Shown here one piece after another: positions 14,850 to 18,840 of a DNA stretch of 64,000 bases (its first letter is position 1; each line of letters opens with the position of its first letter). Source of the DNA: Alphaproteobacteria bacterium (GTDB taxonomy: Bacteria > Pseudomonadota > Alphaproteobacteria > CACIAM-22H2); the NCBI GenBank assembly GCA_016793165.1, contig JAEULA010000034.1:124001-188000 (forward strand), given 5' to 3'. The notes under the pieces are model-generated. The model was not told where the DNA came from, made no database searches, and saw only the letters and a list, made by a program, of their open reading frames with translations. A program made the translations under genes and the position numbers.

Positions 14850-16178
14850 TCAGTCCTGGATCATACCGGCCTGGCGCATGATCCGCTCGACATGCCGCGC
14901 GGCGTCGTCGAGGGCCGGCCGCGCGAGGCGCACGCCGGTGCCGACGTCCGCGACGGCCTGCGACAGCACGTCGGCCACCGGCCGCCAGTCGCGGATCTGC
15001 GGCAGGATCCGCGAGTACTCGAGGCTTCCCCCGCTCGCCCGCGGGATGTCGCCGTTCGCCTTATTGATCGCCTCGTTCCTGAAGTTCTCGAGATGCACGA
15101 CCATGCCTTCGGAGGTCTCCGGCGCGCTCTTGTCGGTGGCGACGGCGATCTCGAGTTCGGGGTTCGACATCCACTTGATGAACTCCCACGCCGCATCGCG
15201 CCGCGCGGAATGCGGATTGGGGATCATCGACAGGCTCCGCCCGTAGGTGACCGCGGGACGCTGGCCGAAGCGCGGCATCGGTGCGATGCCGATCTGCTGC
15301 CGCCGCAGGGTTCCGACCGGCGCGACCAGGCTCGGCAGGTTCCATTCCCAGCCGACCGTCATCGCCGCCCGCCCCTGCGCGAACGCGACCAGCGCCTGCT
15401 CCTCGGCGAAATTGCCCGAACCCGGGGCGAGGATCTCGTGGCGGAGATTGAGCTCCGCGAAGATCTGCGTCGCCTCGATCACCAGCTGCTCGTTGAAGCG
15501 CGGCGTCCACCGGTCGCTGAAGATCTCGCCGCCGCGCGCCCACATGAAGTTGAGCCAGACGTGCAGATTGGAATGATCGGGCCGATAGCCCATCGCGAGC
15601 GCCAGCCCGGGAAGGCCCGGCGACTGCTGAAGCCGCCACGATGCCCGGATCAGGTCCTCCCATGTCGCGGGCGGCTGGAGGCGTGCACGCTCGAAGGCGT
15701 CCTTGCGGTAGAAGAGGAGCTGGCCGTAGCCGCGGATCGGCACAGCGAAGGAGCGCCCCAGGAACATCGCGCCGGCACGATAGGCGGGCGGATAGCGACG
15801 CAGGTCGAGCCCGTCGTTGCGCATCAGCTCGTCGAGCGGCATCAGGTCGTCGACCAGGAAGGGCAGCCAGGTATCGGCGATGTTCGCGACGTCGAACGAC
15901 GCGGCGCGCCCGCGCAGCTCGGTGCGCAGCTGGTCGAGCATGCGATTGAAGTCGGCGAAGACGAAGCGGACCGAGATGCCCGTCAGCTGGCGGAACTCGG
16001 GCAGGCGCTTGGCGATGCCGCGGTACTGGTTGGAAGGGGGCAGGACGACGACGATCTCCTGCCCGGCGAAGAGCCTCCCGGGCAACAGGCCGTGCGGCAT
16101 GCCCTGGGCACGCGCAACCCCCGCCGCCCCGGCCGCAAGTCCCGTCAGGGTGGTCGCGAGTAGTTCCCGCCGTCTCAT
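14850..16178 (-). CDS. ABC transporter substrate-binding protein, sugar type (family 1), orphan
   Basis: Binding protein of 442 residues with a twin-arginine-like leader (MRRRELLATTLTGLAAGAAG, cleavage near ARAQG). The mature part follows family 1: QEIVVVLPPSNQYRG at the start, then FREEQALVAFAQGRAAMTVGW-like core residues. I set the start at ATG 16178 because the leader begins there; the frame is open to 16241 but adds a charged stretch that would spoil the leader. No permease or ATPase of the sugar type lies nearby, so it must use membrane parts encoded elsewhere. It is divergent from the PEP-CTERM gene. Confidence 0.85.
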   Translation of the reverse strand: MRRRELLATTLTGLAAGAAGVARAQGMPHGLLPGRLFAGQEIVVVLPPSNQYRGIAKRLPEFRQLTGISVRFVFADFNRMLDQLRTELRGRAASFDVANIADTWLPFLVDDLMPLDELMRNDGLDLRRYPPAYRAGAMFLGRSFAVPIRGYGQLLFYRKDAFERARLQPPATWEDLIRASWRLQQSPGLPGLALAMGYRPDHSNLHVWLNFMWARGGEIFSDRWTPRFNEQLVIEATQIFAELNLRHEILAPGSGNFAEEQALVAFAQGRAAMTVGWEWNLPSLVAPVGTLRRQQIGIAPMPRFGQRPAVTYGRSLSMIPNPHSARRDAAWEFIKWMSNPELEIAVATDKSAPETSEGMVVHLENFRNEAINKANGDIPRASGGSLEYSRILPQIRDWRPVADVLSQAVADVGTGVRLARPALDDAARHVERIMRQAGMIQD

Positions 16179-16511
16179 TCGCTCAGTAGGTCCCTGTTCC
16201 CGGGGGAGGTCTTGTCGGACCGGGCGTTCGCCGGTCGGCATCGATCCGCGCCGCTATCTAGCATCGGCGATCGGGAACCGCACAGAGATAGAGGCCCCTC
16301 CCCCCCTGCGGCCGATCCCTCAAGCCGACGCCAGGGGCGGCGTTGGAACGACCCTCGACGCCTTGATGCTCATCCAAATCGACTATCTCCAAGGCCTTAC
16401 AATTACCGGGCACCATCCGCGATCGCCGTGACTTTTCAAGGGCCGAGCCGTTGGCATACCGATTGCTGGCCCGGGTTTCCTAGGCACCACTTTCCTGTAC
16501 CTGGGGGACTC
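16179..16511. other. 333-base divergent intergenic region
   Basis: Gene-free spacer between the orphan binding-protein gene (minus) and the PEP-CTERM gene (plus). It holds a sigma-54-type element at 16452-16467 near the plus-strand gene and a Shine-Dalgarno-like GGGGGA just before ATG 16512. The stretch 16230-16440 is where an enhancer-binding protein would be expected to bind, but I see no obvious long palindrome there. Confidence 0.6.
16452..16467 (+). promoter_or_regulatory. Sigma-54 (RpoN) type -24/-12 promoter for the PEP-CTERM gene
   Basis: TGGCATACCGATTGCT keeps GG (16453-16454) and GC (16465-16466) exactly 10 bases apart, with TGGCA and TTGCT matching the RpoN consensus. Transcription would start near 16478, leaving a leader of about 34 bases before ATG 16512. 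PEP-CTERM genes in other proteobacteria are reported to depend on RpoN with the PrsK/PrsR pair, which supports the reading. Confidence 0.72.
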
Positions 16512-17549
16512 ATGCGTCCATTTCGTCTTGCAACCGCCGCCGTATCGTTGCCGCTGTGGTTGAGCGCGCATACAGCGCTCGCCGCGCCCTGCTCGGGCAC
16601 GACCTTCGGCGCCGGGTTCGCGGCCTTCTACTCCTGCGAGAATCTCGGCACCCCCGGCGGGATCCCGACCAATCTCGGCGGCATCACCTTCCTCGACGAC
16701 GACACCCTGCTGATCGGCGGCGCAGCCAATGGCAGCGCGGGCGTGATCCGACAGATCGACGTGGTGCGCGGGGTCGGCGGTCACATCACCGGGTTCGCCG
16801 GCCCGTCGACGGCCTTCGCCACCGCTCCCAACATCGACGGCGGCTTGTCCTTCGGTCCGGGCGGCGTGCTCTTCGCCACCGGCTACTCGAACAACACGCT
16901 GCTGCAGTACAAGCCGGGCAGCACCAGCCCCGACAAGATCATCAACCTGAACTCGATCAGCCCGGCCGTCGCATCGTCCGTCGGCGCACTCGCATTCGTT
17001 CCGGCCGGATTCGACGGCGCCGGCCAGCTCAAGATCGCGAGCTACAATACGCACCGCTGGTACACCGCCACCCTGACCGCCGATGGCAGCGGCACGTACG
17101 ACGTCACCGTCGTCGAGAACAGCCCGATCCAGGGCGGCCCGGAGGGCATCGTCTATGTCGACGGTGCCAATGACGGCTTCGGTGTCGACTCCGTCCTGGT
17201 CTCCGAATACAGCGCCAACGCCGTGGCCGCGTACGACATCGACGCAAATGGCAATCCGATCCTCGCAAGCCGCGAGGTCTTCCTTTCCGGCCTCAGCGGC
17301 GCCGAGGGCGCCGTGATCGACCCGCTGACAGGCGATTTCCTGTTCTCGACCTTCGGATCGGCCAACAGCGTGTTCGTGATCAGCGGCTTCGACGCGCCTC
17401 CGCCGCCCCCGCCGCCGCCTCCTCCTCCGCCGCCGCCGCCTCCGCCTCCGCCACCTCCGGCGACGGACGTGCCCGAGCCCGGATCTATGGCGCTGTTCGG
17501 CGCGGCCCTGCTCGGGGCCGCAGCCCTGCGCCGCCGCCGCAAGGCCTGA
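16512..17549 (+). CDS. PEP-CTERM sorting-domain secreted protein with 21-proline linker
   Basis: Exported protein of 345 residues. A signal peptide (MRPFRLATAAVSLPLWLSA, cleavage near ALAAP) precedes a roughly 270-residue domain rich in beta-strand and glycine, with propeller-like repeats (GGITFLDDDTLLIGG, GGLSFGPGGVLFATG, GGPEGIVYVDGAN). Then come 21 consecutive prolines and a C-terminal VPEPGS, hydrophobic helix and RRRR tail, the full PEP-CTERM signal cut by an exosortase. No exosortase or exopolysaccharide operon is in the window. The protein is probably released or anchored at the outer surface. The start is fixed by the signal peptide and GGGGGA upstream. Confidence 0.9.
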   Translation: MRPFRLATAAVSLPLWLSAHTALAAPCSGTTFGAGFAAFYSCENLGTPGGIPTNLGGITFLDDDTLLIGGAANGSAGVIRQIDVVRGVGGHITGFAGPSTAFATAPNIDGGLSFGPGGVLFATGYSNNTLLQYKPGSTSPDKIINLNSISPAVASSVGALAFVPAGFDGAGQLKIASYNTHRWYTATLTADGSGTYDVTVVENSPIQGGPEGIVYVDGANDGFGVDSVLVSEYSANAVAAYDIDANGNPILASREVFLSGLSGAEGAVIDPLTGDFLFSTFGSANSVFVISGFDAPPPPPPPPPPPPPPPPPPPPPATDVPEPGSMALFGAALLGAAALRRRRKA

Positions 17550-17663: not shown

Positions 17664-18536
17664 TCAGCCGGGCAGCGGAATGTGCTCGCTCTCGCCCGGG
17701 ACCCGCCCCATGCGCTGCGCCGCCCAGTCGGCCTTGGCCTGGTCGATGCGCGCCTTCGACGATGCAACGAAGTTCCACCAGATCGTGCGCGGCCCGTCGA
17801 GCGGCGCGCCGCCGAACAGCATGACCCGCGCCGGGCCGGCGCTGCGGATCACCGCCGGCGCGCCCGGCACCAGGACCGCGACATGGTGCGGCGCGATCGT
17901 CTCGCCATCGACCTGGACGCTGCCGTCGACGACGTAGCAGGCGCGCTCCTCGTGCTCGGCCGCGAGCGCAAGCTCGCCGGCCGCCGCGAGGCGCGCATCG
18001 GCGTAGAACAGCGGCGACGCCACCGCGACCGGCGACCGCTGCCCGAAGGATTCGCCGGCGATCAGGGTCAGCTGCGCGCCACCGCTCGCGAAGCGCGGCA
18101 GGGTCTGCGCGGGATGATGGACGAAGCTCGGCTCGCACTCGGCCTGCGCCTGCGGCAGCGCGACCCAGACCTGGATCCCGTCGAGGCGCTCGCCCGACCG
18201 GCGCCGCGACGGCGCGGTGCGCTCGGAATGGACGATGCCGCGGCCCGCTGTCATCCAGTTCACGGCGCCCGGATCGATCGGCTGCACGATCCCGAGCGAA
18301 TCGCGATGCACGATCTGGCCCTCGAACAGGTAGGTCACGGTCGCGAGGCCGATATGCGGATGCGGCCGCACGTCGAGGCCGTGGCCCTCGGCGAAGCTCG
18401 CCGGCCCCATGTGGTCGAAGAAGACGAAGGGGCCGACGGCGCGCCGCGCGACCTGCGGCAGCAGCCGTCGAACGCGGAATCCGTCGCCGAGATCGCTCTC
18501 GTTCGGCGGCAGGATGAGCGCGATGGCGCTGGTCAT
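17664..18536 (-). CDS. Pirin family protein
   Basis: Bicupin protein of 290 residues. The N-terminal cupin carries the pirin metal residues in the segment RPHPHIGLATVTYLFEG (two histidines), with a further histidine in IVHSER. The C-terminal cupin includes EHEERACYVVDGSV and GGAPLDGPRTIWWNFV. Pirins are iron-binding proteins, some acting as quercetin dioxygenases and others as regulators; the role here is not known. ATG 18536 lies 10 bases after the small gene upstream. Last gene of the minus-strand group led by hutH. Confidence 0.92.
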   Translation of the reverse strand: MTSAIALILPPNESDLGDGFRVRRLLPQVARRAVGPFVFFDHMGPASFAEGHGLDVRPHPHIGLATVTYLFEGQIVHRDSLGIVQPIDPGAVNWMTAGRGIVHSERTAPSRRRSGERLDGIQVWVALPQAQAECEPSFVHHPAQTLPRFASGGAQLTLIAGESFGQRSPVAVASPLFYADARLAAAGELALAAEHEERACYVVDGSVQVDGETIAPHHVAVLVPGAPAVIRSAGPARVMLFGGAPLDGPRTIWWNFVASSKARIDQAKADWAAQRMGRVPGESEHIPLPG

Positions 18537-18546
18537 CGCGGCGACC

Positions 18547-18840
18547 TCAGCGCGCCAGGAGGTCGAAAGCGATGGCGTCCCACTCCGCCTCCAGGGCGCC
18601 GCGCGCGGCCGGCTTGCCCGCGCGGCGATACCAGTAGCCGGCATTCGACAGGTCGCCCTCGACGCGATGGAGATAGGCGTGCACCCAGTCGTGCCGGGGC
18701 TCGCCCTCGTCCTGCTGCACCAGCTTGTGCGCCGCGTCCCAGTCGCCCTTGGCCGCATGCCAGAGCGCCTTGAGCGGCCGGTCCAGCTCGTCCGGCGGCG
18801 TCGCCCGCGCGACGGAAGCCTTGAAGGTCGCGATATCCAT
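18547..18840 (-). CDS. Small conserved-looking protein of unknown function, next to pirin
   Basis: Predicted 97-residue soluble protein rich in tryptophan, alanine and acidic residues: LKALWHAAKGDWDAAHKLVQ, then DWVHAYLHRVEGDLSNAGYW. The spacing of these aromatic helices resembles a short helical-repeat (TPR-like) fold. I do not know a function. It lies between the membrane protein gene and pirin with gaps of 17 and 10 bases, so it is probably co-transcribed. Confidence 0.75.
   Translation of the reverse strand: MDIATFKASVARATPPDELDRPLKALWHAAKGDWDAAHKLVQQDEGEPRHDWVHAYLHRVEGDLSNAGYWYRRAGKPAARGALEAEWDAIAFDLLAR

Follow-up and report, generated by a model that had tools for sequence, protein, structure and literature searches.

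The PEP-CTERM gene analysed here very probably belongs to a dispersed RpoN regulon of PEP-CTERM genes under PrsK/PrsR control, whose products are processed by XrtA. The system itself is already known, having been predicted in 2006, with part of it since demonstrated by experiment in floc-forming bacteria, and, judged from sequence, this gene is a clear further member of it. The promoter element, the sorting tail, XrtA, PrsK, PrsR, RpoN, the EPS genes and the regulon-wide motifs are all recognisable in the DNA; promoter use, the part of PrsR as activator, cleavage by XrtA and a role in the matrix are what we infer.

The gene was studied in a window of 64 kb (the whole stretch of DNA analysed, C72:124001-188000) from a 7.2 Mb draft genome that is 93% complete with 7.8% contamination. 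Its coding sequence occupies positions 16512-17549 of the plus strand, starts with ATG (C72:140512) and encodes a PEP-CTERM surface protein of 345 aa. It is solitary between two neighbours, both named by inspection: a solute-binding-protein-like gene on the left (14850-16241 in its longest form), which points away from it, and a pirin-like gene on the right (17664-18758), on the opposite strand. The first-pass annotation of this DNA had called the gene lone, and it does stand alone; this trait is ordinary, since Haft et al. 2006 (PMC1569441) found the majority of PEP-CTERM genes to form operons of one gene preceded by long non-coding stretches. Taking the usual distance of a start site from the GC of the -12 box, transcription is predicted to begin near 16478, and this predicted start agrees with the leader of about 34 nt proposed earlier (16478-16511, plus strand). 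The leader carries an SD-like GGGGGA; a ribosome site is indeed present (TGGGGGACTC-ATG), its quality being fair rather than good as had been stated.

The protein has a signal peptide, identified by inspection (MRPFRLATAAVSLPLWLSAHTALA), and ends in the tail VPEPGSMALFGAALLGAAALRRRRKA. The sorting tail proper (17469-17546, plus strand) consists of VPEP, a hydrophobic helix and RRRR, and the full PEP-CTERM signal read there at first pass (VPEPGS, helix, RRRR) is confirmed by two profiles, both above their curated cut-offs: PF07589 with 31.4 bits (cut-off 20.7) and TIGR02595 with 26.3 bits (cut-off 16). Among the 68 PEP-CTERM matches found genome-wide at E <= 10, this tail ranks second. The protein thus shows the N-terminal signal peptide, PEP motif, hydrophobic helix and basic tail by which an exosortase A substrate is recognised. 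An assignment as PepA ortholog was rejected, the floc_PepA profile (NF033554) giving 33.3 bits against a cut-off of 80 and matching the tail only.

Concerning the promoter, sequence, score and genome-wide enrichment all identify 16452-16467 of the plus strand as a near-perfect -24/-12 sigma-54 element, with the GG-N10-GC spacing that had been claimed. The element, TGGCATACCGATTGCT, matches TGGCAYR-N4-TTGCW, has ten bases between GG and GC, lies 44 nt 5' of the ATG and reaches 20.7 of 21 in the scoring applied to the 58 PEP-CTERM genes described below. In the whole genome the exact pattern TGGCA-N6-TTGCW occurs at 19 sites, against 5 in the mirror control, and nine of the 19 precede PF07589 genes (binomial P ~1e-22). 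Another exact site (C107:204044) precedes a PEP-CTERM gene missed by the Pfam search, with the tail VPVPATLALFSAALAGLGFARTRRTA, and one precedes a flagellin-like gene. The scan for TGGCA-N7-TTGC that had been proposed at first pass assumed a wrong spacing, the true one being N6, and for this reason the TGGCA-N7-TTGCW pattern shows no enrichment (4 sites, the mirror control having 37).

To judge the regulon as a whole, we used the 58 PEP-CTERM genes whose upstream DNA was usable, picking start codons by their likeness to a signal peptide and ribosome site and taking for each gene the best sigma-54 score within 250 nt upstream, with a pass at 18.5 or more of 21. A strong site was found in 29 of them. 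When the -12 box was moved 1-4 bases either way only 0-4 genes passed, and on the opposite strand only one. In principle the match at 16452-16467 could be due to chance, with the gene using an ordinary sigma-70-type promoter; the direct evidence at the locus is sequence, and 27 of the 58 genes lack a good sigma-54 site, scoring under 18. We consider this highly improbable, however, as the element is the top-scoring sigma-54 site on both strands of the 64 kb, the exact pattern is rare with almost half of its occurrences before PF07589 genes, and the best -35/-10 pairs match 8 of 12 positions with a poor spacing of 19 nt.

A second motif accompanies these promoters. De novo (Gibbs) sampling of the sequence preceding the sigma-54 promoters, run without the window gene, yielded a box refined to yGTCGG-N6-TTACA in a 22-nt model. 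Scored by leave-one-out with a pass at 9 or more, the box is found in 21 of the 29 sigma-54-positive PEP-CTERM genes, 38-83 nt before the promoter, compared with two on the antisense strand and one among 27 sigma-54-negative genes. The genome contains 13 copies of the composite pattern GTCG-N7-TTAC-N38..68-GGC-N7-TTGC, its mirror control none, and across 61 genomes it is commoner where PrsK is present (Mann-Whitney p = 0.0003). Haft et al. 2006 (PMC1569441) had described a 17-nt motif 1 ending in TTTACA, proposed as the PrsR site, separated from motif 2 by a spacer of 62.8 nt on average (range 32-92 nt), and a distance from the sigma-54 motif to the start averaging 71, with a minimum of 23. 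Since the promoters in 29 of 58 genes and the shared upstream box in 21 of those 29 match this motif 1/motif 2 arrangement, the dispersed RpoN regulon suggested by the first-pass annotation is, at the level of sequence analysis, strongly supported as the reading for the window gene.

Three other places in the genome deserve mention. Several of the PEP-CTERM genes located on contig C45 are without a good sigma-54 site accompanied by a box, which may reflect either a group under different regulation or binning contamination. At C99:63339-63429 (L048) a strong box and sigma-54 site stand ahead of a large secreted repeat protein that is cut by the contig end, and C20:86772 likewise lies ahead of a large secreted-type protein; both are probable further members of the regulon.

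The first-pass reading depended on an exosortase being encoded somewhere in the genome, and our search for it and for PrsK and PrsR returned exactly one of each. Exosortase A, with an EpsI domain, is encoded at about C72:81,875-83,452 and is adjoined by the gene for a TIGR03087 XrtA-system glycosyltransferase; XrtA is placed there at C72:81983-82732, with 310.7 bits (cut-off 208). PrsR (C72:88,367-89,719; 682 bits, cut-off 502.6) and PrsK (C72:89,757-91,763; 554 bits, cut-off 300) follow, and after them, up to 99,650, come an EpsB-type sugar transferase, a chain-length protein, a tyrosine autokinase, a PEP-CTERM-system outer-membrane protein and an ATPase. These XrtA, PrsR, PrsK and EPS genes lie about 41-60 kb upstream of the window gene, on one contig with it despite the draft state of the genome. 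The earlier statement that no exosortase, EPS cluster or prsK/prsR is nearby consequently holds inside the window, within whose 64 kb no exosortase was found, and fails for the contig. Bordering the XrtA/EPS cluster, a good PrsR-type box (score 17.4) was observed at C72:103125, just past a UDP-GlcNAc epimerase-like gene. The genome also encodes a single RpoN (432 bits, cut-off 277) and four clear sigma-54 activators, PrsR, NtrC, NtrX and an FlbD-like protein, plus one marginal match. The occurrence of NtrX and FlbD points to an alphaproteobacterium.

The forward box is missing from eight of the 29 sigma-54-positive genes, the window gene among them. Two other outliers look like variants: on C113 the box has one extra base and is recovered when gaps of 4-8 are tried, and on C103 there is a strong reversed box. 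The latter, at C103:12922 (plus strand) near the PEP-CTERM gene C103:11574, precedes a perfect sigma-54 site by about 165 nt. Either boxes are functional in this orientation, or the regulon also includes a divergent gene. The window gene was not recovered with gaps of 4-8; in the first Gibbs run, which placed a box in most genes, it had no significant match (p = 0.19), and with the 22-nt model scored by leave-one-out its upstream region has no canonical forward box, the best score being -9.1. An isolated TTACA half-site without a GTCGG partner is present at 16397-16401 (plus strand), 50 nt before the -24 element; it stands at the usual box position and may be a chance occurrence. On the minus strand, at 16344-16360 and 91 nt from motif 2, a weak reverse-oriented sequence resembling the PrsR box (CGTCGAGGGTCGTTCCA) reaches a half-site score of 12.5, the 99% threshold of the Markov null being 11.5 at gap 6, but has only p = 0.043 with gaps 4-8. 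Because the forward box is absent and the reverse match is weak, we infer PrsR as activator of this gene from the regulon rather than from a demonstrated site.

The same facts bear on the alternative that the sigma-54 promoter is real but answers to NtrC, NtrX or the FlbD-like protein, the gene then responding to nitrogen or flagellar signals and not to PrsK/PrsR. Besides the lack of a canonical forward box and the weakness of the reversed one, this idea draws on the existence of three other activators in the genome and of at least one perfect sigma-54 site before a flagellin-like gene; yet the PrsR box is present in the majority of sigma-54-positive PEP-CTERM genes, the C113 and C103 cases look like variants of it, and visual inspection of the DNA upstream of the window gene revealed no NtrC-type dyad, so we regard this alternative as unlikely. 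It is also conceivable, although we hold it doubtful, that a PrsR site lying further away in reversed orientation, or a different activator, serves the promoter, in which case some of the PEP-CTERM proteins of this one genome would be switched independently of the main PrsR group.

If control by PrsK/PrsR is accepted as the best reading, sigma-54 (RpoN) RNA polymerase would bind at 16452-16467 and remain closed until an AAA+ activator acts, most likely PrsR once the membrane kinase PrsK has phosphorylated it. Opening would then give a monocistronic mRNA from near 16478. Its product would be exported via the signal peptide, held in the membrane by its tail and processed by XrtA, and would be delivered to the matrix or surface along with the XrtA-linked exopolysaccharide.

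This scheme agrees in several respects with systems described before. As in a regulon of the type of Haft et al. 2006, the genome encodes PrsR, PrsK and RpoN and a -24/-12 element stands upstream of the gene. Like the genes of that EpsH (XrtA) system, which has PrsK, PrsR and PrsT, ours is a single-gene operon with a long non-coding upstream stretch and a sigma-54 motif 44 nt from the start; PrsK and PrsR are in tandem near EPS genes, and the genome-wide box ends in TTACA and lies 38-83 nt before the promoter. It differs in that the window gene has no canonical forward motif 1 and in that about 60 PEP-CTERM genes are encoded in an alphaproteobacterium-like genome. The link between PEP-CTERM genes and RpoN in floc-forming bacteria, which the first-pass annotation had taken as known, is indeed documented: for pepA of Aquincola tertiaricarbonis RN12 the start site has been mapped and transcription depends on RpoN1 (PMC9850573), the -24/-12 element being TGGCAC/CTGCTT (PMC9850573). 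Both genes are PEP-CTERM genes behind a -24/-12 element; however, pepA adjoins prsT and has a recognised enhancer, whereas 41-60 kb separate the window gene from its cluster. In Zoogloea, according to a summary given in PMC9012009, floc formation requires PrsK/PrsR.

Between signal peptide and tail, the ectodomain (16578-17408, plus strand) is a predicted NHL-like beta-propeller. The AlphaFold2 model, built on a two-sequence alignment, has a mean pLDDT of 78.6 and a pTM of 0.82, and a Foldseek search of the PDB matches it to designed Pizza6 propellers and NHL domains (E ~1e-7, TM ~0.5). The predicted fold resembles NHL-type propellers such as TRIM2/3 NHL, the PknD sensor and Pizza6, a likeness of topology only at TM ~0.5; a PDB sequence search with the protein gave no match, and in the Pfam search the ectodomain matched no propeller family.

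No ortholog was found in 60 relatives at E <= 1e-15, and among 385 genomes of the class there is one, in genome G251 of another family, 64% identical and with the PEP-CTERM tail kept. The propeller of our protein is joined to its tail by a linker of 21 prolines (codons at 17397-17459, plus strand); the G251 ortholog has instead a short EEEPP linker. Within 400 nt upstream of the latter there is no good sigma-54 site (best 16.5 of 21), and no PrsR above cut-off was found in that genome. This contrast, in which the tail is kept while the sigma-54 site is absent and PrsR is not found, is suggestive support for the PrsR/sigma-54 link, coming as it does from a single comparison. Where the sigma-54 site is absent, the region upstream of the G251 ortholog (L140 1134-1307, minus strand) has TGTGACCGCCGTCACA and a second similar dyad, both TGTGA-N6-TCACA-like and resembling, by inspection, CRP/FNR sites. 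A 55% identical domain occurs in a Planctomycetota bin, with a different C-terminal domain and no PEP-CTERM tail; this relative (L103 1-4248) adjoins two similar tandem ORFs of secreted type. Matches of 32% were also found inside a giant Leptolyngbya protein. With so few orthologs, a phylogenetic footprint was ruled out.

These results extend a regulon that was predicted computationally, and has been partly proven, to a large alphaproteobacterium-like genome. In that genome clear sigma-54 activators number only four, PrsR included, and roughly half of the exact sigma-54 sites are followed by a PEP-CTERM gene. The GTCGG-N6-TTACA motif with its spacing provides an explicit activator box, open to a footprinting test. 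The window gene adds to this regulon a predicted surface propeller; in the genome where no PrsR passes the cut-off, its ortholog retains the sorting tail but not the sigma-54 promoter.
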